27,566 nucleotides of DNA, taken from the IMG/VR virus record IMGVR_UViG_3300043543_000393, positions 1-27,566 of that record. One strand, written 5' to 3'. The DNA comes from a virus. A model generated the notes under the pieces. That model saw only the letters and a list, made by a program, of their open reading frames with translations, made no database searches and was not told the DNA's origin. The translations under genes and the position numbers were made by a program. This document shows, in pieces, positions 1,702-21,473 of this stretch (its first letter is position 1; each line of letters starts with the position of its first letter).

Positions 1702-3720
1702 TTAGTCTGCGCTGCGCAAGAGGCCGCGCCAATCGAGCGCCTTGGCGGCGAAGTCGTGCCGCACCTTGAACTCGACGCCATCCAACTCGAAACCGACGCG
1801 CTGATCGAGGAACGGCTCGGTCTGCCCTTCGAGCCGGGCGTATTCGATCGTATCGATTAGATTCGGATCGGCGGCGAGATACCAGGCGCTTGTGCCGAAC
1901 AGGCGCGGCTCCTCGATGATCTGCAAAGAGCCGGCGAACGGATTGACATCGTCCGGCTTCGCCGGAGTGGTCTGTGCCATGAGCTTGCGCGCCTCGATGG
2001 CGCGCGGCCCCGGCGGCACCAGGATGAAGCGCGGCCGTGCGGCGATATAGTCCTCGCCGCCCAAGTCCTTCTGCCCTGCCATTATCTCCCATGCCTCGGC
2101 AAGCGCCTGTTCGGTGACCTGGACAGAAGTGATAACGTTGCTGTGTTCAGCGCTGAACAGAGCGAACCCGTCCGCCATACCCGGATTCGACGTGAGCTCG
2201 GCATAGACCAGCGCCGATTCGAGATCGGCGGCGCGCTGGCCAGCGGTGGATAGCGCGCGGTCGAAGGCGCGCAGATCGTCGTTGACGATCGCCTGCCGCG
2301 TGAGCGCGACGATGCGGCCGAAGGTGGCGAGCTTGTAGGTCTCGCGCCCCTCGGCGATGGTGCCGTAGGAGAATTCGGCACCTTCCGCCACCGGCTTGAG
2401 CGTCGGGAAGTTGCCGACCTGCGTCGGATACATCGGCTTGAAGTCGGTCGCGGTAATGCCGCGCGTCCAGGCCTCGAACGTGCGCGGCGTGGAGGCATAG
2501 GCCTGCCGCAGCCGCTTGCCCGCCACCGCCGCCAAAATCAGCGGGAAATCCGACGTCGAGTGATATCCCGCCGCCCGCGTCGCCGTGTAGGCGACTTCGT
2601 TGGCGGTCATGCCGCGCGTGCGCGTGCCCGCCGTCTCAAGGCAGTCGCGCGCCACGTCGACGAGCGACATGCCGCGATACTCCTTGGCGCGGTCGGTGAG
2701 CTGGAACACCGTGGGCGCCGCGCGATGCAGGATCGCCTCGGCCAGCGCCTCGCGCCGCGTCACCGTGGCGTCGAGGCCGCCGGCCGGCATCGAAATTTGC
2801 GTGTGCCCGACGCCGCGCGAGTCCTGCTCTTCGAGCTTGCGCAGCACGGCATCGCGCGCCTGCGGCACGGAAACCCCGCGCGCCACCAGATCGTCGACGA
2901 ACGCCTCGTCCAGCTTGAAGCGTTTGCCGAGCGCCTGGATCGCGGCGATGCGCTCGCGCTCCTCGCGCCGCACCTCGTCGACGTTCGGCTGCGGCGCGGA
3001 AGCCATCGGCGTCGGCGCGGGCGCCGGTGCCGGAGGCGGAGCCGCATTCGGCGCGCTACCGCGCTTATCGAGCGTGTCGATCAAGTCGCCCTGTTCGCCG
3101 GCGACGGGCGTGTCATGCTTGGTCATCCTTGACCCATCAGGTTGCGCCGCCGGCTTGGCGGCAAGATCGTCGCCCCGGACCACGACGCATGGCGCGAGCG
3201 CCGCATCGCTGCGGATGTGCGCTCCCGGGTCCGCCGCGACGGGCACGGCGGAGATTTCCAACGGTTCCCAATCGACGGCGCGCCAGAGTTCCGGCTCGCC
3301 GTCGCGCTTCTCCACCTCGTACTTGTGCACTTGGTAGCCGACCGACACCTGGCGGATGATGCCATCCTGAATGTCACGGAAGATCGCCTCGGCGCGCTCG
3401 CTGAAGCGCACCGTGGCGACGCCCCTGCCGTCGACGATGCGCGCCGAGCCCGGCTCGACCACGCCGATGATGCCGTCGAGTTCGAAGGCGTTGTGCGCAT
3501 CGAGGAACGGCGCGCCGGAGTTCAGCCGCTCAAGGCGCACCGCGCCGGGCTCGACGACGAGTTCCTCGTCGACATCCTCGGCAAAAAACCGCCGGCGCCG
3601 CACGCGCGCGCCGGTGGTCCAGATCACCTCAACCGTGCGCTTCTCGGTATCGGCCGTTTCCGCGCGCAGGTCGACTTCGCGCGCGAGCCGCGGCAGCATC
3701 AGGTTCTTCTGCGTCGGCAT
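1702..3720 (-). CDS. Prohead protease / major capsid protein fusion
   Basis: 672 residues joining two head functions. Residues 1-170 are an HK97-type (U35-like) prohead protease: a His at about 76 in LDAHN, a Ser at about 126 in RQVSVGY, and the family block WEPLEISAVPVAADPGA (about 151-167). Residues about 220-245 form an Ala/Pro-rich linker and about 246-300 a charged helical scaffold-like region. Residues about 315-672 are the capsid protein, with typical blocks such as TRQAIVNDDLRAF and ILVPPGPRAIEARKLM. Single-chain protease-scaffold-capsid fusions are a known phage arrangement; the protease is expected to cut the chain during maturation. The start MPTQKNL at 3720 is preceded by AAGGAA; the longer open frame upstream is Arg/Ser-rich and unlike protein. 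The gene overlaps the portal 3' end by 92 bp. Confidence 0.9.
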   Translation of the reverse strand: MPTQKNLMLPRLAREVDLRAETADTEKRTVEVIWTTGARVRRRRFFAEDVDEELVVEPGAVRLERLNSGAPFLDAHNAFELDGIIGVVEPGSARIVDGRGVATVRFSERAEAIFRDIQDGIIRQVSVGYQVHKYEVEKRDGEPELWRAVDWEPLEISAVPVAADPGAHIRSDAALAPCVVVRGDDLAAKPAAQPDGSRMTKHDTPVAGEQGDLIDTLDKRGSAPNAAPPPAPAPAPTPMASAPQPNVDEVRREERERIAAIQALGKRFKLDEAFVDDLVARGVSVPQARDAVLRKLEEQDSRGVGHTQISMPAGGLDATVTRREALAEAILHRAAPTVFQLTDRAKEYRGMSLVDVARDCLETAGTRTRGMTANEVAYTATRAAGYHSTSDFPLILAAVAGKRLRQAYASTPRTFEAWTRGITATDFKPMYPTQVGNFPTLKPVAEGAEFSYGTIAEGRETYKLATFGRIVALTRQAIVNDDLRAFDRALSTAGQRAADLESALVYAELTSNPGMADGFALFSAEHSNVITSVQVTEQALAEAWEIMAGQKDLGGEDYIAARPRFILVPPGPRAIEARKLMAQTTPAKPDDVNPFAGSLQIIEEPRLFGTSAWYLAADPNLIDTIEYARLEGQTEPFLDQRVGFELDGVEFKVRHDFAAKALDWRGLLRSAD

Positions 3721-7975: not shown

Positions 7976-9328
7976 TCATGCTGCTCGCGCGATCTTAAGT
8001 TCATCGAACGCACAATCATCAGCCTCGCGAACGGCTTTGCCGCTGGCAAAGCGCTGCCACCGCTCCACGATCACGTCGCAGTAGCGGGGATCTATCTCCA
8101 TCGCGAGGCAGGTTCGCCCCATGCTCTCCGCGGCAATGATTGTCGAGCCGCTGCCGGCGAACGGTTCGTAGATCAGATCGCCGCGCTTGCTGTTGTTGAG
8201 GATCGGCCGGCGCATGCACTCAACCGGCTTCTGGGTTCCATGCACGGTCGCTTTGTCCTCGTCGCCGGCATATCCGATCTGCCAGACCGTCGATTGATCG
8301 CGCGCGCCCTGACAGTGACCGCTCGCGCCCCTGCGCACCGCGTAGAAGCAAGCCTCGTGCTGCCAGTGATAATCTCCACGGCCGAGCACGAAGCGCGGCT
8401 TCACCCAGATGATCTGCGAGCGAATCTGGAAGCCGCAGGCCTCCAGGCTCTCGGCGACCGTGCGCGCATGCACGCCCGCGTGCCAGACATAGGCGACGTC
8501 GCCCGGGAACAGAGTCCACGCCTCGCGCCAATCGGCCCGGTCGTCATTCGAGACACGGCCGGTGCGCGCGGTCGCCGACACGCCGGCTTCGTTGCGCCAG
8601 GCCGGATCGTAGTCGACTCCATACGGCGGATCGCTGACGAGCAGGTGGGGTGTCGCGCCGCCGATCAATCGTCCGACGTCGTCGGCACTCGTGGCATCGC
8701 CGCAGAGCAATCGATGCTCACCGAGCAGCCAGAGATCACCGGGTCGCGTAACGGGATCGGCGGACGGCTCCGGAACGCTGTCCTCGCCGTCCGCCTGGCC
8801 CCCCGCCGCATCAAGTCCGTCGAGCAGACGATCCAGCTCGTCCTCGCCAAACCCGAGGAGACCGAGATCGAGGCCATCCTCCTTGAGCCGAGCCAGCTCG
8901 GCTGCGAGCAGCTCGTCATCCCAGCCGGCGTTGAGCGCGAGCTTGTTGTCGGCGATCACGTAGGCGCGGCGCTGCGCCTCGGTCAGATGATCGAGCACCA
9001 CGACCGGCACGGCATCGAGCCCGAGACGGCGCGCCGCCTCGAGGCGACCGTGCCCGGCGATCACCGTGCCGTCGCCCGCGATCAGCACCGGATTGGTCCA
9101 GCCGAATTCGACGATGCTGGCGGCGATCTGCGCCACCTGCTCATCCGAGTGCGTGCGCGGGTTGCGCGGATAGGCGGAGAGCCGGTCGAGCGGCCAGAAC
9201 TCGATCCGTTCCGGCGCAAAGCGCAAATGGCGATGGCTTCCCAAAATTTTTGCCTGCCGCTGGCGACCGATCGCGCCTTCGCCGCCCGCATACGCCGGCC
9301 GCCGGGAAGAACCTAAGCCCGCCCCCAT
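7976..9328 (-). CDS. ParB-domain DNA methyltransferase (N4/N6 amino-methyltransferase)
   Basis: 450 residues. Residues about 35-145 form a ParB/Srx-like domain: LDRLSAYPRNPRTHSDEQV, IVEFGWTNPVLI and the GHGRLEAARRLG motif (92-103). The C-terminal half is a beta-class amino-methyltransferase in which the catalytic motif DPPY (233-236) precedes the SAM-binding motif FAGSGST (390-396). Such proteins methylate adenine N6 or cytosine N4 in DNA; the target sequence cannot be predicted. The ATG at 9328 is favoured because it follows the stop of the upstream gene as TGAAATG; a GTG at 9367 is possible. No partner endonuclease lies beside it. It precedes the terminases and could mark phage DNA before packaging. 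Confidence 0.88.
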   Translation of the reverse strand: MGAGLGSSRRPAYAGGEGAIGRQRQAKILGSHRHLRFAPERIEFWPLDRLSAYPRNPRTHSDEQVAQIAASIVEFGWTNPVLIAGDGTVIAGHGRLEAARRLGLDAVPVVVLDHLTEAQRRAYVIADNKLALNAGWDDELLAAELARLKEDGLDLGLLGFGEDELDRLLDGLDAAGGQADGEDSVPEPSADPVTRPGDLWLLGEHRLLCGDATSADDVGRLIGGATPHLLVSDPPYGVDYDPAWRNEAGVSATARTGRVSNDDRADWREAWTLFPGDVAYVWHAGVHARTVAESLEACGFQIRSQIIWVKPRFVLGRGDYHWQHEACFYAVRRGASGHCQGARDQSTVWQIGYAGDEDKATVHGTQKPVECMRRPILNNSKRGDLIYEPFAGSGSTIIAAESMGRTCLAMEIDPRYCDVIVERWQRFASGKAVREADDCAFDELKIARAA

Positions 9329-9329
9329 T

Positions 9330-9692
9330 TCAGAGCGCAAATCGGGAGAATGCGCGCTGAGTAGCACGCAGGCGTCGCAAGGTCAAGGTATCGCGCCGCG
9401 CCCGCGAGCGTGGGGCGGGAGGAGAAAGGGAGGAGGTGGGGGAGGAGATCACGGCGAGGGGGATGCGCGGCTCGCCCCAGCGCCACAACTGCCACCAGCG
9501 CGGCGGCGTCCAGCCGGCGGCTCTAGCGATCCGCACGGCGGCCGCCATAGCCTCGGCAGCCGTCGGCCAGCCGTGCGTGCTGCACGTATGAGTGCCTGCG
9601 GCGTCACGCCAGCGGATCGTGTATCCGTAGCCTATCGCTCGCCGAGGCCCGGCGAGTAGTCCACGTTGGCCCAGATCAGCCTCGGCGGCCAT
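9330..9692 (-). CDS. Hypothetical small phage protein
   Basis: About 120 residues. The best-formed part is GYGYTIRWRDAAG, then STHGWPTAAEAMAAAVRIAR and GWTPPRWWQLWRWGE: a short beta unit followed by a helix and a Trp-rich motif. This pattern occurs in small unnamed proteins of alphaproteobacterial prophages; no function is known to me. The C-terminal 40 residues are Ser/Pro/Arg-rich. The start is unclear: ATG at 9692 or 9746, neither with a strong ribosome binding site. It is the first gene of the leftward packaging/head operon and its stop is one base from the methyltransferase start. Confidence 0.55.
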   Translation of the reverse strand: MAAEADLGQRGLLAGPRRAIGYGYTIRWRDAAGTHTCSTHGWPTAAEAMAAAVRIARAAGWTPPRWWQLWRWGEPRIPLAVISSPTSSLSPPAPRSRARRDTLTLRRLRATQRAFSRFAL

Positions 9693-13017: not shown

Positions 13018-13750
13018 CTAATCTCATGGCTGGTGGCCCGAGCGCATCAGCGACCCGCTCTGGCCCACTGTACTGTGCGGTATCGGATTGGTTTGCTTCC
13101 ACCACATGGCGGCGATCCTCGTTGAGCGATTCGATAAGCGACAGGGAAATCAGCCGGCCGTCGGAAGTGTAGACCGGCGCGCGGCCGGCCGCCCTATAAT
13201 CGCGCAGGATGAACTGATCGCGCTCGGCAAGGATTTTGCTAATCTGAGCGTCGGACTTTTGTTCGCGCGCCGCATTCGCCTTGAGCGCATCGAGCGCCCG
13301 ACGCACCTGTGCATCGACACGCGCCTGCTCCTCCGGCGTCCGAGTGCGCTTCTCCCACTGTTCCGCTTCGTAGTTGTCACGCTCCCGCCATTGCTGTTCG
13401 AGTTGCCGCAACCGTTCTTCCTCCCGGTTGCGCCTTTCGATGATGGCATCGCAGAAATCGCGGACCTCCTTGACCGTCGGAAGCCATTGGCACCTGGACG
13501 GCAGCCCCGAGCGCGGGTCGGTGGCCAAAACCACAACATCGTCCGGATATTCGTCGAGCACCGCGCAAATGGCGGCCGCATACACTTCCGGGTCAGCCGC
13601 TTCGTCCCTTCGGTAGCAGCCGCACAATATCCGGACCCTCTCCAACCGGAGCGAGCTGCGGTCGCGGGCCGAAGCTAATTCCTTCGACCGCGAGGCGTTC
13701 TGCAGCGCGCCCAACGCTACGATCCCGATCGGGCGTATCGTATCGTCCAT
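13001..13750 (-). CDS. Hypothetical protein of the replication module, 249 aa
   Basis: 249 residues. The conserved-looking core is RLERVRILCGCYRRDEAADP, then VYAAAICAVLDEYPDDVV and a WLPTVKEVRDFCD block, followed by a long charged coiled coil (about 105-185, EERLRQLEQQWRERDNYEAE). Proteins with this layout follow replication genes in many alphaproteobacterial phages; their function is unknown to me. The start at 13750 has GGAGG with an eight-base spacing. It overlaps the end of the replication gene by 158 bp in another frame, an unusually long overlap. Confidence 0.6.
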   Translation of the reverse strand: MDDTIRPIGIVALGALQNASRSKELASARDRSSLRLERVRILCGCYRRDEAADPEVYAAAICAVLDEYPDDVVVLATDPRSGLPSRCQWLPTVKEVRDFCDAIIERRNREEERLRQLEQQWRERDNYEAEQWEKRTRTPEEQARVDAQVRRALDALKANAAREQKSDAQISKILAERDQFILRDYRAAGRAPVYTSDGRLISLSLIESLNEDRRHVVEANQSDTAQYSGPERVADALGPPAMRLDEQKT

Positions 13751-14552
13751 TCGCCTTGCCTCCTCTCTTGCCGATGATGACCCTCAGGTGGCGTTCGATC
13801 CACGCGACGGGATCGACGATCCGGTTTCGCTCGGCCTCCTCGATCAAGCCGACGACGTGGATTGCCTCATCCTCGACCAGCTTGAGCCAGCGGCCGAGCA
13901 ACGAGCGGCAGGCGTTCGGCGTCCTGCCGGTGATCGCCGCGAGCTTCGAAAGTCCGGTGCTGAAAAGCTCTGTTCTCGGGTCGGCTGCCGCCGAAGGCGG
14001 CGCGCGAAGCGCGGCATCGCCATCAGCAGGCACGACGCTCATTTTTTGCTGCGTCGCAGTATTTTTTTGCGACGCACACGGCAGACAAACACTCTGACTC
14101 TCTATAGGTAACTCTGTCTTTATCTCTGTCTTTATCTCTGTCTCTGTCTCTCTCTCTTTCTCTGGGCTAGCATCCTGCTTGCGCTCTGCTAGCGGCGCGC
14201 TAGCGTCATGCAAGCATGGTGCTAGCAACGTGCTAGCAGCCTGCTTGCATTCGTCTACGTCGTTCTCAATGCTGAAAAATCCGGCCTGAATGAGAGGATC
14301 GAGCGCCGCGACGAAATCCGGCTCGGCCATGTGCAGCCGAAAGGCGATCTGCTTCACGCTGCCGACGATCTGTCCGTCCCTGTATTCGCTCGCCAGCAGC
14401 CAGAGCAACGGCGCTAGCGCCCTGCTAGCAACCGGCAAGCAGTGAAATTCGTAGTCGTCGAGAAGTTGCCGGTGCAGCTTGATCCAGCTCGGCGACCGGT
14501 CTTTGTAGTGCTGGAACCGCTCCCAGTGCTTGGGCGTGATCTTGACCTTCAT
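13593..14552 (-). CDS. Phage replication initiator-like protein (carries a putative origin)
   Basis: 319 residues in three parts: residues about 1-95, a helical N-terminal domain with winged-helix character (SWIKLHRQLLDDYEF, GSVKQIAFRLHMAEPDFVAA); about 100-190, a low-complexity linker with repeated ETEIKTEIKTEL and Ser/Ala runs; and about 195-319, a helical domain (GRTPNACRSLLGRWLKLVED). This layout is that of phage replisome organisers such as lambda O or DnaD-like primosomal proteins: N-terminal origin binding, flexible linker, C-terminal helicase-loader contact. The start at 14552 has AAGGAG at good spacing and an ATGA overlap with gcrA. The linker-coding DNA contains 11-bp-spaced repeats, a purine tract and an AT-rich dyad. 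Confidence 0.65.
   Translation of the reverse strand: MKVKITPKHWERFQHYKDRSPSWIKLHRQLLDDYEFHCLPVASRALAPLLWLLASEYRDGQIVGSVKQIAFRLHMAEPDFVAALDPLIQAGFFSIENDVDECKQAASTLLAPCLHDASAPLAERKQDASPEKERETETEIKTEIKTELPIESQSVCLPCASQKNTATQQKMSVVPADGDAALRAPPSAAADPRTELFSTGLSKLAAITGRTPNACRSLLGRWLKLVEDEAIHVVGLIEEAERNRIVDPVAWIERHLRVIIGKRGGKANGRYDTPDRDRSVGRAAERLAVEGISFGPRPQLAPVGEGPDIVRLLPKGRSG
14050..14076. repeat. AT-rich inverted repeat inside the replication gene
   Basis: TGCGTCGCA (14050-14058) and TGCGACGCA (14068-14076) are perfect 9-bp inverted copies around GTATTTTTT. A further run of six T residues lies at 14042-14047. It is among the few AT-rich spots in this GC-rich window and sits beside the pyrimidine tract and the 11-bp repeats, as expected for the unwinding part of an origin. 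Confidence 0.6.
14112..14164. repeat. Pyrimidine-rich microsatellite tract
   Basis: About 53 bases of almost pure C/T on the plus strand. They include two exact 12-bp copies of CTGTCTTTATCT (14114-14125, 14126-14137), two CTGTCT units and a CT run. On the coding strand it is a purine tract encoding the Glu/Thr/Lys repeats of the replication protein linker. Strong strand asymmetry of this kind can favour duplex opening. Confidence 0.7.
14166..14248. repeat. Array of eight 11-bp-spaced iterons (putative origin)
   Basis: Six-base elements start at 14166, 14177, 14188, 14199, 14210, 14221, 14232 and 14243, exactly 11 bp apart: GCTAGC, GCTTGC, GCTAGC, GCTAGC, GCAAGC, GCTAGC, GCTAGC, GCTTGC. Five are the full palindrome GCTAGC and three differ at one central base. 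The five bases between copies are not conserved. Because 11 is not a multiple of three, the spacing is not explained by a protein repeat. One helical turn per element would place binding sites on one face of the DNA. It lies in the linker-coding part of the replication gene. Confidence 0.75.
14413..14440. repeat. Second cluster of three 11-bp-spaced iterons
   Basis: GCTAGC at 14413 and 14424 and GCAAGC at 14435 keep the same 11-bp spacing as the main array. They lie 165 bp from the end of that array, near the codons for residues 38-47 of the replication protein. The distance between the clusters (14243 to 14413, 170 bp) is not an exact multiple of 11. Confidence 0.6.
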
Positions 14553-15025
14553 GCCGCCATCTCCTTCCGCGCCTGTTCTGCATTTTCCTCCGCCTCCCGT
14601 TCCTGCTTCGGCCGCCAGGGCCGGAACGCGACCGCCGCATGCGCGGCGCAGTACGAGCCCGCCTCCGTCGGTCGGCCGCAGAACGTGAACGGGCCTTCGC
14701 CGTAGGGCCAGCGGCAATCGCCAGCGGAGAGATCGAGCAGATCGAGATGCAATGGGCACGGCTCGGGCGCCGCCGCCGGCGCGGCCGGCCGCAGCTTTTC
14801 CGTCCGGCGCGGCACGATCCGCAGCAACGGCCGCTGTTTTTTCCGACGGTCGCCAGGAATTCTCGGCTGCGCGATCTTCGGCTTCTTAAGCTGCATCCGG
14901 TGCGCCTTGCCGATTACCGCATTGCGCGAGATCCCGAGTTCGACAGCGATCTGCGCCGCCGACATCATGGGCCACAGCTCGACGAGCCTGGCGATCATCG
15001 CGTCAGTCCACATTGCTTTGCCCAT
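14549..15025 (-). CDS. gcrA: GcrA-family cell-cycle transcription regulator
   Basis: 158 residues. The N-terminal helix-turn-helix reads MWTDAMIARLVELWPMMSAA then QIAVELGISRNAVIGKAHRM (about residues 5-44), the hallmark of GcrA. The C-terminal part has the other family block, GDCRWPYGEGPFTFCGRPTE followed by GSYCAAHAA, with paired cysteines. In Caulobacter, GcrA binds RNA polymerase with sigma-70 and activates promoters carrying GANTC adenine methylation. A phage copy could redirect host cell-cycle transcription or control phage promoters. It lies in the leftward early operon between a 62-residue gene (23-bp overlap) and the replication gene (ATGA overlap), downstream of an adenine methyltransferase. 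Confidence 0.9.
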   Translation of the reverse strand: MGKAMWTDAMIARLVELWPMMSAAQIAVELGISRNAVIGKAHRMQLKKPKIAQPRIPGDRRKKQRPLLRIVPRRTEKLRPAAPAAAPEPCPLHLDLLDLSAGDCRWPYGEGPFTFCGRPTEAGSYCAAHAAVAFRPWRPKQEREAEENAEQARKEMAA

Positions 15026-15191: not shown

Positions 15192-15733
15192 GCGGCGCAC
15201 TCCGCTTCGTAGCCAATGCATCGGCGCCATGTGGGAACGCTGCCGCAAACCTCGGCAATCGGCACGATGCGGCACTCGGTCCTGTTGCATTGCTCGGTGA
15301 CGCTGACCGGATAGGACGTGTGCCGCGGCCAGAACCAGTCTTGCAATTGCGGGAAGTCGATCAGATAGCAATCGAGCTGCGTTTCGGCGCGATTGGCAAA
15401 ACAATACAGCAGATAGTCGGCCTGGCCGTAAAACATCCAGCCTGGGCTTTCGCGCTTCGCAACCGTGCAGCTCTTGGTTTCGAGCGCGAAGGCGGTATAG
15501 GGCCGATCCGTCTTCGGCCAGCGGACTATTTTTTCCTCGATCGAAATCGCGCCGCCGTCCCTGCGCTGCACGATGGTGTCGACCGCATAGCGTTTTTGCA
15601 GAATCGTCGCCATGCGGCCCTTGTCGACCGTCACGTAGCGGCCATCGAGCGCATATTTGCCGTAGAAGAGCGGCGCGAGAATTTTGTCGCGCAAGCGACG
15701 CTGGCATTCGTTGTCGCGGACGAATTCGTTCAT
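15188..15733 (-). CDS. PD-(D/E)XK-like nuclease or related protein
   Basis: 181 residues. The region around residues 50-70 reads YAVDTIVQRRDGGAISIEEK, which offers the D-x13-E-x-K arrangement (D52, E66, K68) of PD-(D/E)XK phosphodiesterases. ALETKS (about 83-88) and YGQADYLLYCF (about 98-108) follow as the expected core strand and helix. No specific family is recognised. It begins in an ATGA overlap with the ParB/MT-A70 adenine methyltransferase, so a restriction or DNA-processing role linked to that methylation is conceivable but unproven. Alternatively it is a housekeeping phage nuclease, or an inactive fold relative. Confidence 0.5.
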   Translation of the reverse strand: MNEFVRDNECQRRLRDKILAPLFYGKYALDGRYVTVDKGRMATILQKRYAVDTIVQRRDGGAISIEEKIVRWPKTDRPYTAFALETKSCTVAKRESPGWMFYGQADYLLYCFANRAETQLDCYLIDFPQLQDWFWPRHTSYPVSVTEQCNRTECRIVPIAEVCGSVPTWRRCIGYEAECAA

Positions 15734-16818
15734 TCGGCGGCCTGTTGCGCGACGGGTTGAAAGAGGTTGAGGAAATCGGGACGGGCGCGGCGCTGGAACA
15801 ATTCGCCATAGATCGGGCCGTAGGAGGCGGCGCGCACGACGTTGTAGAATTCTTCCGGCTTCTCGGAGTGCTCGCCGACCGGCGCCTCGAAATGCGTGGC
15901 GATGTCGTCCCGCCGCGTGCGCAATTCGCCGCGCACCCCGAACAGCACATGCTCGGTCGAATTGCGGAAATAGGAGCCCAAGCCCAAGCGCGGCTTGACC
16001 CAAGTCAGGACCGTCTTATGGGCGAAGCCCCAGCGCGCCATCAATTCGACGGCGCGCGTCATGAAATTATTGGTGGTCCAGAGATAGAGATGGCAATTGT
16101 CTTCCGCCCATTGCGCCACGTCGAGCGCCAACAGCTCGTCGTGAGTCATGGTGGCATAGCCGGGCGCCGCGCGGCCGGCCAACGAGAGCCACTCGTAGTC
16201 CCAAGGCGGATCGACCACCAGTGTCTTGAATTTTCCCGGCACCGGCGCGAGGCTCGCAACGCGCTCCTCGTCGCGCATCATGCGCAGCTTGCGATAGGCC
16301 CCGGTCACCTTGCCGGTGCGGTCCATCTCCTCGACCAGGCGACCGAATTTTTCCGGCTCCGCCTCCGCCGCCTCCACCACGGCGGCGATCTTCTCCACCG
16401 TGCGGCCGGACACGCCGGCGAACGCGCCGATCTTGTCGCGCGTTTCGCCGGCATCTTTATTCCGGAAATTTTCCGGATTTTTCGGCGGCCTGCCGCGCGG
16501 CGTTGCGACTAGAGATGCCATCGCCCGGCGGATCGCCTCGATCTCGCTTGGCAGAAAATCCTTGCGCTGGCTGTTCTCCGCGAATTCCCCGCGCACAATG
16601 TCGTCCAGATCGACTTCGGTGACCGGAATCTCCTTCCAGCCGAGCAGCTTGGCCGCCGCCAGCCGCCGCGCGCCGGCGATCAAGCGGCCCTGCTTGGTCA
16701 CCACGATGGGATGCAGCAGGCCGACCTCGCGCATGCTGCGCGCGAGTCCGTCGACATCGCCAAGATCGCGGCGATGCCGCACGCCAATCTCGATGCTGTC
16801 GAGCTTGCGCAGCTTCAT
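15730..16818 (-). CDS. ParB-domain plus MT-A70 adenine methyltransferase
   Basis: 362 residues. Residues about 1-100 are a ParB N-terminal-like domain with RSMREVGLLHPIVVTKQGRL and GARRLAAAKLLGW (49-61). The middle (about 105-185) is a helical ParB/KorB-like HTH region (GAFAGVSGRTVEKIAAVVEA). Residues about 195-362 are an MT-A70 methyltransferase with catalytic DPPW (203-206), YLWTTNNF and WVKPRLGLGSYFRNSTEHVL. Such phage proteins methylate adenine N6 in DNA. The start MKLRKL at 16818 overlaps the upstream stop as ATGA; the longer open frame before it is an Arg-rich shadow of the neighbouring gene. It is the second ParB-methyltransferase fusion in the window, from a different methyltransferase class. 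Confidence 0.9.
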   Translation of the reverse strand: MKLRKLDSIEIGVRHRRDLGDVDGLARSMREVGLLHPIVVTKQGRLIAGARRLAAAKLLGWKEIPVTEVDLDDIVRGEFAENSQRKDFLPSEIEAIRRAMASLVATPRGRPPKNPENFRNKDAGETRDKIGAFAGVSGRTVEKIAAVVEAAEAEPEKFGRLVEEMDRTGKVTGAYRKLRMMRDEERVASLAPVPGKFKTLVVDPPWDYEWLSLAGRAAPGYATMTHDELLALDVAQWAEDNCHLYLWTTNNFMTRAVELMARWGFAHKTVLTWVKPRLGLGSYFRNSTEHVLFGVRGELRTRRDDIATHFEAPVGEHSEKPEEFYNVVRAASYGPIYGELFQRRARPDFLNLFQPVAQQAAE

Positions 16819-17366
16819 CGCACCCAGCGATAGGCGATGACGCGCGCGCGCGAATAGACGCCGACGCCGACCGCGTTGTTGTGATTGCCGGAGAGGATGA
16901 TCGGATCGTCGCCGGCATAGCCCTGCACGATGCCGACGTGGCCGCCGCGCGCGCCGCGGCTGAGCACCGCGACGCAGCCGACGCAGCCGTGCGGCGCCGG
17001 CGCGCCGATGCGCGCCCAGGCGCGCGCGCGCCACAACGCCCGATCGGCGAGGCCGAAGTGGTGCTGCAACCAGCATCCGCACCAGCGGCGCGGCGGGCAA
17101 AAGGGTGGGCGGCCGCCGCCCGGCGCGTCGAGGAGGAACCGCGCGGGATACGCGATGGCGGCCGCCCGCGGGAGCGTCGGCGGTGGCGATGGGGCGAGCT
17201 CCCGCATCTCGTATTGATCGGTGGCCTCGCGTGCCTCGGCGGCCAGCATCAGCGCCAGCAGCGCGGCGGCCGCGGTCACGAGAACCGCGAGCCAGCGCAA
17301 CAGGCGATGCGCGCGGGCGCGGGCGAACGAGTCTTTGACCGGCTCGGGCCAGACAAAATGCGGCAT
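16815..17366 (-). CDS. Membrane-anchored TIGR02594/CHAP-like cysteine hydrolase
   Basis: 183 residues. One membrane segment (about 23-44, LLRWLAVLVTAAAALLALML) is followed by a Pro-rich spacer and a domain with WCGCWLQHHFGLADRALWRA (Cys96), SRGARGGHVGIVQGY (His143) and ILSGNHNNAVGVGVY (Asn161), ending RVIAYRWVR. This Cys/His/Asn layout is that of the TIGR02594 CHAP-like family, usually peptidoglycan hydrolases; the topology would place the domain in the periplasm. The start at 17366 has AGGAGGAGG seven bases upstream. Its place in the leftward early operon, away from the lysis cassette, is odd for an endolysin. It could help entry, act in superinfection exclusion or modify the wall. Confidence 0.65.
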   Translation of the reverse strand: MPHFVWPEPVKDSFARARAHRLLRWLAVLVTAAAALLALMLAAEAREATDQYEMRELAPSPPPTLPRAAAIAYPARFLLDAPGGGRPPFCPPRRWCGCWLQHHFGLADRALWRARAWARIGAPAPHGCVGCVAVLSRGARGGHVGIVQGYAGDDPIILSGNHNNAVGVGVYSRARVIAYRWVR

Positions 17367-19748: not shown

Positions 19749-19820
19749 GTGATCCGGGCCGACGGCACGCGCGAATGGTGGCGCGATGGCAAATGGATTC
19801 ACGAGGAGCAGCCGCGATGA
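19749..19820 (+). CDS. Mini-protein, 23 aa
   Basis: A GTG start gives MIRADGTREWWRDGKWIHEE then QPR, ending in an ATGA overlap with the next gene. The pattern 'I-R-DGT-EWW-DGK' resembles the repeat unit of longer phage proteins that begin with ADGT-WWRNGK, so this may be a shortened member or an upstream peptide that couples translation of the next gene. Weak ribosome binding site. Confidence 0.35.
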   Translation: MIRADGTREWWRDGKWIHEEQPR

Positions 19821-20068
19821 CCAACATCCCGATCACCAGCACCGCCGCCGCGCCCGCAAGCCTGGCGCTCGGCCTGCACGAGGCGATCTTCGCCCACTTT
19901 CGGCAACACGGCAACGACGGCCAGGCCTGCGCGCAGATCATCGAGGCCATCGTCGCGCTGGCGCGCGACTACGAGCAGGCGGATCGGCATTTCCGCTGGC
20001 GACTAATCCGCAAATTGGCGGAGGCGCGGCGAGTTCCAACGAGTGGAGAGTTAGGAGACGCAAAATGA
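19817..20068 (+). CDS. Small hypothetical early protein
   Basis: 83 residues from MTNIPITSTAAAPASLALGL, with helices LHEAIFAHFRQHGNDGQACA, QIIEAIVALARDYEQA and FRWRLIRKLAEARRVPTS. All-helical by appearance, no family recognised. The start overlaps the mini-protein stop as ATGA, and its own stop overlaps the ERF gene start as ATGA. Confidence 0.55.
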   Translation: MTNIPITSTAAAPASLALGLHEAIFAHFRQHGNDGQACAQIIEAIVALARDYEQADRHFRWRLIRKLAEARRVPTSGELGDAK

Positions 20069-20841
20069 GCCAAGCCAATCTCATTAGGCCGGAAGAAACG
20101 GCATCGCGAGCAATCGAGCAGGAGGCCGCGGCCATCACCCCATTGCAGATGCTCGACCGCGCCATTGCATCCGGCGCGGACATGGAGGTTTTGACCAAGC
20201 TGATGGACCTATATGAGCGGTGGCAGGCGAATCAGGCGCGCCGCGCGTTCAACGAGGCCATTGCCGCGGCCAAGGCGGAAATTCCGGTGATTGCCAAGAA
20301 CCGCGAGGTGGATTTCATCTCGCAGAAGGGCCGCACGCACTATCGCTATGAGGATTTTGCCGGCATCGCGCGCGTCATCGACCCGATCCTCGCCAAGCAT
20401 GGGCTATCCTATCGATTCCGGACCACCGCTGCCAATGGCGTTCTGACCGTCACTTGTGTTCTCTCGCATGTCGCCGGCTATGCCGAGGAAAACAGTCTGC
20501 CGGCCTCCTACGATGAGACCGGCAACAAGAACCCGATCCAGACGATAGGATCGACGCAGACCTATCTGCAACGCTACACGCTCAAGGCCGCGCTGGGTCT
20601 TGCCGCGTCCGACGATGACGACGGGCGGGCTGCGGCGGCCGCGGAAACCATCTCGCCCGAGCAGGTGGCCGAATTGCAGGACCTGATCGCCGCCTACGGC
20701 GCGCCGAAGGAGAAATTCCTCAAGTACCTGAAGATCGAGAGCCTGGTCGAATTGCCGGCGGCGCAATTTGCGAAGGCCAAGGCGGCGCTCGAGCGCTGGA
20801 AGGCCGGCCAGGCAACTCAGGCCAAGAAGGCCACGCCATGA
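20065..20841 (+). CDS. erf: ERF-family single-strand annealing protein
   Basis: 258 residues. The ERF domain lies at about 45-190: LMDLYERWQANQARRAFNEA, an FISQKGRTHYRYEDFAGIAR block, IDPILAKHGLSYRF and the diagnostic IGSTQTYLQRYTLKAALGLA followed by an acidic ASDDDDGR. ERF proteins form rings on single-stranded DNA and anneal complementary strands in phage recombination or genome circularisation. The C-terminal helices (about 195-258) are Lys/Ala-rich. AGGAG precedes the start, and an ATGA overlap joins it to the YqaJ exonuclease, its usual partner. Confidence 0.92.
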   Translation: MSQANLIRPEETASRAIEQEAAAITPLQMLDRAIASGADMEVLTKLMDLYERWQANQARRAFNEAIAAAKAEIPVIAKNREVDFISQKGRTHYRYEDFAGIARVIDPILAKHGLSYRFRTTAANGVLTVTCVLSHVAGYAEENSLPASYDETGNKNPIQTIGSTQTYLQRYTLKAALGLAASDDDDGRAAAAAETISPEQVAELQDLIAAYGAPKEKFLKYLKIESLVELPAAQFAKAKAALERWKAGQATQAKKATP

Positions 20842-21473
20842 CCGAGACATTGCAAGGCACGCCGGAATGGCATCTGGCCCGGCTCGGCAAGGTCACCGCC
20901 TCGCGCGTGGCCGACGTGGTGGCGCGCACGAAGAATGGCTACGGCGCTTCGCGCGCCAACTACATGGCCGAGCTGATCGCGGAGCGGCTGACTGGCACGC
21001 CGGCCCCGGATTACGTCAGCGCCGCCATGCAATGGGGGCTCGACAGGGAGCCGGAGGCGCGCATCGCTTACGAATTGTTCTATGGTTATGAGGTTGCGCC
21101 GGTCGGCTTTATCGATCATCCGAGCATTGCAATGTGCGGCGCGTCGCCGGACGGGCTGATCGGTGACGACGGACTCGTCGAGTTCAAATGCCCGAACACC
21201 GCGACGCACATCGATGCGTTGCTCGGCGCGACGATTGAGAAAAAATATCTGCTGCAGATGCAATGGCAGATGGCCTGCACCGGCCGGCGCTGGTGCGATT
21301 ACGTCTCCTACGACCCGCGCCTGCCGACGGAGATGCAATTGCTGGTCCAGCGCGTGGTGCGCGACGACAAGCTGATCGAGGAATTGTCTGGCGAGATCGT
21401 CGGCTTCTTGCGGGAGCTGGACGAAAAACTCGCCGCGCTGAAGGCGCGCTATCAAACCAGGCAGGCGGCATGA
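20838..21473 (+). CDS. YqaJ-family phage exonuclease (lambda Exo-like)
   Basis: 211 residues with the YqaJ/lambda-Exo fold: QGTPEWHLARLGKVTASRVA at the N-terminus, WGLDREPEARIAYE (about 66-79), then the PD-(D/E)XK core SPDGLIGDDGLVEFKCPN with D105, E115 and K117, and YLLQMQWQMACTGRRWCDYV after it. These enzymes chew 5' ends to create the single strands that ERF-type annealers use. The gene is translationally coupled to both neighbours by ATGA overlaps. Confidence 0.92.
   Translation: MTETLQGTPEWHLARLGKVTASRVADVVARTKNGYGASRANYMAELIAERLTGTPAPDYVSAAMQWGLDREPEARIAYELFYGYEVAPVGFIDHPSIAMCGASPDGLIGDDGLVEFKCPNTATHIDALLGATIEKKYLLQMQWQMACTGRRWCDYVSYDPRLPTEMQLLVQRVVRDDKLIEELSGEIVGFLRELDEKLAALKARYQTRQAA

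Follow-up and report, generated by a model that had tools for sequence, protein, structure and literature searches.

Our comparative analyses suggest that the replication initiator gene of the phage studied here carries the phage's replication origin within its own coding sequence, laid out on the plan of lambda, with a 6-bp site in every helical turn and a specificity that can be swapped. We consider this reading likely (probability of about 0.78); all of the evidence is comparative, without binding, replication, or read-coverage data, and binding of the N-terminal domain (N-domain) to the sites, strand opening in the neighboring purine-rich tract, helicase recruitment, and the start of replication at the array are all inferred. 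The feature is read as a phage origin because its order of elements inside an initiator gene, iterons followed by a purine-rich stretch and an inverted repeat, is that of lambda. The layout is kept by hundreds of distantly related phages in which the sequence of the sites varies together with the DNA-binding domain, as would be expected of an origin embedded in a gene, although this reading has no experimental data behind it. The original prediction of a probable phage origin, made from sequence alone, is supported to this extent.

The replication initiator gene and its neighborhood

The window, i.e. the whole 27.6-kb phage record that was analysed, encodes a 319-aa replication initiator on the minus strand (CDS 13593-14552; the strand given here is a correction). 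In a profile search, the gene product matched phrog_26426, annotated as "replication protein," with E=5.2e-34 over residues 5-152, corresponding to the N-domain and linker. An AlphaFold2 model divides the protein into a winged-helix N-domain (aa 1-97), a disordered linker (~98-186), and a helical C-terminal domain (C-domain; ~190-263), with pLDDT values mostly above 90 in the N-domain and mostly below 60 in the linker. A fold search of the PDB with this model returned no significant match (best E ~1, the weak ones including winged-helix regulators), a sequence search of the PDB gave no matches, and no relative of the protein was found in a plasmid collection. The O-like family phrog_345 fell short of significance against the 319-aa protein (E=0.097) but is strongly matched, mainly via the C-terminal half, by some relatives of other families that bear the tract described below.

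The gene is flanked by a GcrA-like regulator and by a gene whose product has no convincing family match. The GcrA-like cell-cycle regulator (14549-15025, minus strand; Pfam E=1e-27) lies immediately upstream and overlaps the replication gene by a few bases. No helicase or loader gene adjoining the replication gene was identified in the window, whereas dnaC-like, helicase, or ATPase genes come after the homologous gene in Iodobacter phage PhiPLPE, Cylindrospermopsis phage Cr-LKS3, and Vibrio phage phiV208, which are among the annotated relatives. Elsewhere, the phage encodes two proteins in which a ParB-like N-domain is fused to a DNA methyltransferase, one of MT-A70 type at 15730-17100 and the other at 7976-9367 (both minus strand), and a recombination module on the strand opposite the replication gene, consisting of an Erf-like annealing protein (19786-20841, plus strand) beside a RecE-like exonuclease (20838-21473, plus strand).

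Phased hexamer sites in the initiator gene

Array B, in the linker-coding part of the gene (14166-14248), comprises eight 6-bp sites, each GCTAGC or a stop-avoiding GCWWGC, at an exact 11-bp step; exact GCTAGC starts at 14166, 14188, 14199, 14221, and 14232, and one-base variants start at 14177 (GCTTGC), 14210 (GCAAGC), and 14243 (GCTTGC). Array A (14413-14440) has GCTAGC at 14413 and 14424 and GCAAGC at 14435, again with an 11-bp step, and lies in the part coding for the N-domain (CLPVASRALAP). The first site of array B (14166-14171) directly adjoins a CCAGAG box on the minus strand (CTCTGG on the plus strand; 14160-14165), with which the array is in fixed register and at which a purine-rich tract begins. 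This tract (AGAGAGAGACAGAGACAGAGATAAAGACAGAG, about 14112-14165 on the minus, coding strand) is our proposed strand-opening or loading element. Beyond it lies a 9-bp inverted repeat with arms TGCGTCGCA (14050-14058) and TGCGACGCA (14068-14076) around an AT-rich 9-nt loop.

Most of the original description of these elements held. Eight elements, five GCTAGC and three one-base variants, had been claimed every 11 bp from 14166 to 14243, which is confirmed by the sequence and by the nulls below, and a pyrimidine tract with 12-bp repeats (~14112-14165) was correctly seen, being the purine tract of the coding strand. Three more elements had been placed at the same step at 14413-14440; these keep an 11-bp step among themselves but not with the eight, the distance from 14243 to 14413 being 170 bp (170 mod 11 = 5). 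All elements had been assigned to the linker-coding part, whereas the sites at 14413-14435 code for the N-domain, and of the inverted repeat described as AT-rich, only the loop is so, the 9-bp arms being GC-rich.

When the full window was dinucleotide-shuffled 60 times, the longest ladder at any step from 6 to 40 bp had 3 rungs, compared with the 8 observed. Among 10,000 synonymous-codon permutations of the 319-aa gene, neither the 7 GCTAGC (mean 1.35) nor a ladder of 8 (maximum 6) was ever reached. The step of 11 bp is not a codon multiple. An 11-bp step cycles through the three reading frames, one of which puts the TAG of GCTAGC in frame, and the variants in array B are spaced 33 bp apart because an exact GCTAGC at these positions would give an in-frame TAG stop. 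The same holds across relatives, where exact GCTAGC accounts for 0/196 sites in the stop-prone frame, with GCTTGC (48) and GCAAGC (14) as the chief replacements (62 together).

Conservation of the sites at the DNA level

Relatives of the protein were gathered from IMG/VR and GTDB genomes (100 encoding loci), with hosts including Bradyrhizobium, Micavibrio, Planctomycetes, and Gammaproteobacteria. Nearly all of these loci carry two GCTAGC clusters, A at CDS positions ~106/117/128/149 and B at ~276-310. When 51 representatives less than 70% identical were compared with a codon-preserving null obtained by synonymous permutation, GCTAGC was observed 205 times against an expectation of 34.6 ± 5.1, and the count of GCWWGC pairs spaced by 11 bp was 137 (5.1 ± 2.5 expected). 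The further strongly enriched distances, 21, 22, 32, 33, 43, and 44 bp, are near whole helical turns, and in a rhizobial group the step alternates between 10 and 11 bp, averaging 10.5; the sites are thus helically phased. A check proposed in the original prediction, an alignment of relatives to see if the 11-bp step persists where codons differ, is satisfied by these data, the spacing lying far above the null in divergent relatives and also in the subfamily described below.

The density of GCTAGC was 205 per 36.9 kb within the gene versus 25 per 266 kb outside it. Under a region-specific codon null, clusters A and B were each enriched on their own (for the array A region across the family, 111 GCTAGC versus 17.8 expected), whereas the 3' remainder of the gene showed no excess. 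GCTAGC-N5-GCTAGC occurred at 16 places in ten host genomes, 13 of them inside the replication gene, and the GCTAGC ladder used as sole bait found 87 unique places, of which 75 lay within an open frame of the GCTAGC replication-gene family, with the purine tract downstream in 69/84. A GCTAGC ladder near position 3687 of locus L321 does not lie in a long open frame, is apparently outside any replication gene, and could be a noncoding iteron array. Together, these data show that iteron-like sites within the initiator coding sequence are conserved as DNA.

The purine-rich tract

In relatives, the coding strand past array B is ~80% purine over 40 bp, and the purine fraction of the tract (0.801) exceeds that expected from its amino acids (0.726; sd of the mean 0.0045). 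The excess is seen in codon choice, since threonine is encoded by ACA in 81/91 cases within the tract versus 81/380 elsewhere, and arginine by AGA in 69/87 versus 73/680. Together with the permutations above, these data show that selection acts on the DNA of the array and tract independently of the protein; array and tract also stand in fixed register. We also considered whether the tract escapes constraint from the protein; this is weakened by the finding that it keeps one reading frame in 54/57 family genes, although codon choice still shows selection at the DNA level and two loci, L128 and L126, read the tract in another frame. Relatives show a moderate enrichment of a short inverted repeat past the tract (mean stem score 13.6 versus 11.2, p ~1e-7).

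A switch of core sequence in a sister subfamily

Relatives with a FQHFKDRRPPWIKL-type N-domain lack the GCTAGC ladder and instead carry GATATC at an 11-bp step. Compared with synonymous permutation, this subfamily has 34 sites versus 9.9 and 21 pairs at 11 bp versus 0.3. In both subfamilies, sites fall at -39/-28/-17 relative to a common CYAGAG box at the start of the common CCAGAGACAGAG purine tract. Position -17 is the stop-prone, variant site of the GCTAGC subfamily; GATATC, on the other hand, is stop-free in every frame, and its frame use is even (11/12/11). No counterpart of array A was found in the GATATC subfamily genes examined.

The core sequence is inherited with the N-terminal winged-helix domain and not with the C-domain. 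A tree of the N-domains of 244 genes requires 3 changes of core, versus at least 56 when shuffled. For the same 98 genes with a common C-domain, the C-domain tree requires 17 changes and the N-domain tree only one. Part of this association reflects physical linkage, as the array comes immediately after the code for the N-domain. Between L060 and L288, the C-domains are 89% identical but the N-domains and cores are different, with a jump in DNA identity at the purine tract. GCTAGC is carried by some genes whose N-domain is GATATC-like (L190, L196, L398, and L401), and the phiKX1 protein, which has the C-domain in common but a different N-domain, has no GCTAGC ladder. One locus (L279) has a hybrid array upstream of the tract, in which two GATATC come after one GCTAGC and all three share one 11-bp register. 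Intact relatives without phased repeats, named in the original prediction as a refuting case, were not found as a rule; most relatives without GCTAGC carry GATATC ladders, and among the relatives checked only a few isolated genes (L102/L103 and L244) lacked a clear ladder.

Other initiator families reached through the tract

As an unbiased bait, CCAGAGACAGAGACAGAG alone was run against viral contigs and found 72 unique places, namely 33 GCTAGC ladders, 14 GATATC ladders, and 25 others. These 25 show periodicity at lag 11 (z=9.4) and lag 22 (z=4.9), with cores that include GTAACG, GTGACG, GACGCC, and GATGCC, although a few are unrelated purine repeats (e.g. L182). Of the other genes linked to CCAGAGACAGAGACAGAG, eight that were scanned matched replication-initiator PHROGs of several kinds. 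In seven loci (L144, L147, L151, L153, L163, L173, and L176), replication genes have 11-bp-phased GTGACG/GTCACG, GTAACG, GATGCC, or GACGCC cores preceding the same tract. A separate observation concerns ydaU of the E. coli Rac prophage (L424), considered as a possible distant counterpart, which has repeats in its linker-coding part (CDS nt 300-460) at lag 33 (z=4.7) and more weakly at 11, 12, and 23; it is possible that these are the Rac origin oriJ, but the evidence is suggestive only.

A bolder reading, which we regard as no more probable than its negation, is that many phage initiator families use one modular origin design, in which an interchangeable N-domain and one-turn-phased iterons of matching sequence stand in fixed register to a common (GAGACA)n purine tract. 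The tract would then be both a common element for strand opening, R-loop formation, or loading and a recombination joint for swaps of specificity.

Discussion

In the mechanism that we propose, the N-terminal winged-helix domain would bind the 6-bp sites. With one site in each turn of the helix, the bound copies would all face the same side of the DNA and form an ordered array, or would wrap the DNA as in lambda's O-some. At its end the array meets the purine-rich tract in fixed register, and there the strands would open, a step that array-induced strain, transcription through the gene, or both would assist. Transcription-aided opening is plausible, as a transcript carrying the coding-strand purines would be expected to hybridise stably with its template. 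The C-domain, tethered through the disordered linker that the origin DNA encodes, may then bring in the helicase or its loader. A GC-skew plot, proposed originally as a further check, was uninformative on the origin, showing only a broad minimum at ~14-17 kb that is confounded by gene direction.

Among the alternatives, the most serious is that the array is an operator, bound by the N-domain or by another phage repressor to control transcription of the replication operon, the origin lying elsewhere. Short palindromic sites for a winged-helix protein would fit an operator too, array A is near the gene start, and autoregulation by initiators at iterons is common and established for plasmid Rep proteins. 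Array B, however, is mid-gene, far from the start and in fixed register with the purine tract, and the layout is repeated in other replication-initiator families and agrees with the known order of elements in lambda's origin, so we consider an operator unlikely. A partition site bound by a filament-forming adaptor, like the 11-bp repeats of R1 parC or tubC, is less probable still. In its favor, R1 parC consists of 11-bp repeats in two clusters, and the window encodes the two ParB-like/methyltransferase fusions. Against it, the array lies in a replication gene and not beside parR/parM, and the neighboring genes are not the adaptor and motor genes that would mark an R1 parC-type centromere; the array is also present in the dwarf myovirus PhiPLPE, which we take to be lytic, and its core tracks the N-domain of the initiator.

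It is similarly improbable that the repeats act in the mRNA, through RNA structure or control of translation. The sites are transcribed and palindromic, but exact spacing by 11 bp (or 10/11) has no special meaning for RNA, the TT or AA that avoids the stop is the preferred replacement although it destroys the palindrome, and GATATC would fold only weakly. That the pattern merely follows from conserved amino acids (ASRALAP, LAECLQDA, ETETE) combined with codon bias is all but excluded, since the codon-preserving null refutes it. Some of the residues encoded at the sites are indeed conserved, and the tract is read mostly in one frame, but the pattern vanishes under synonymous permutation, the tract prefers ACA and AGA codons, and GATATC sites occur in all three frames.

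If the origin reading is correct, origins could be predicted from sequence in many phages, so far unstudied, that infect Alpha- and Gammaproteobacteria, Planctomycetes, and cyanobacteria. Initiator-origin recognition could be tested directly with naturally occurring pairs of initiators, unlike in DNA specificity but alike in the rest of the protein. The coding sequence holds a second, DNA-level code, down to the stop-avoiding variants of the sites, and the common tract prompts one to ask how strand opening is brought about at origins of this kind. An origin of this type is not described in the open-access literature that we searched, including the genomics paper on the PhiPLPE group, which has no text on origins; subscription papers were outside the search.

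Several known systems resemble parts of this arrangement. Bacterial oriC, with its DnaA boxes and DnaA-trio, also sets double-strand sites in fixed register with a strand-opening element of short repeats, but uses an AAA+ initiator and other sequences. The R1 parC and tubC centromeres likewise consist of arrayed repeats, of 11 to 12 bp, to which small DNA-binding proteins attach; they differ in serving partition and in being noncoding, outside an initiator gene and without a purine tract. The PLE satellites of Vibrio cholerae also pair a phage-satellite initiator, RepA, with iterons, but these are three semi-palindromic iterons of ~30 bp in a noncoding region (PMC8263062). Closer are the origins of lambdoid and Stx phages (O/gp18 types), which, as here, have iterons inside the gene; these are bound by the O protein of the phage, but are large and at about two-turn spacing.

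The lambda origin in gene O is the nearest parallel, and the general plan of lambda O originally claimed for this gene held. In both, iterons in the linker part of the initiator are followed by a coding-strand purine-rich stretch and then by an inverted repeat (GTCAGAG...CTCTGAC in lambda), and lambda O binds DNA through its N-terminal part and recruits through its C-terminal part, as we propose for the 319-aa initiator. The claimed difference from the 18-bp iterons of lambda held as well, since lambda has four such iterons with starts 20-24 bp apart, or about two turns, whereas the present gene has 3-8 hexamers at 11 bp, or one turn. Lambda's stretch is also A-rich and AT-rich, whereas the tract of the GCTAGC family is of (GAGACA)n type, ~50% AT, and in fixed register with the sites. 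The suggestion of a new origin class is therefore borne out only in part, the feature being an apparently undescribed variant of the lambda-type in-gene origin.
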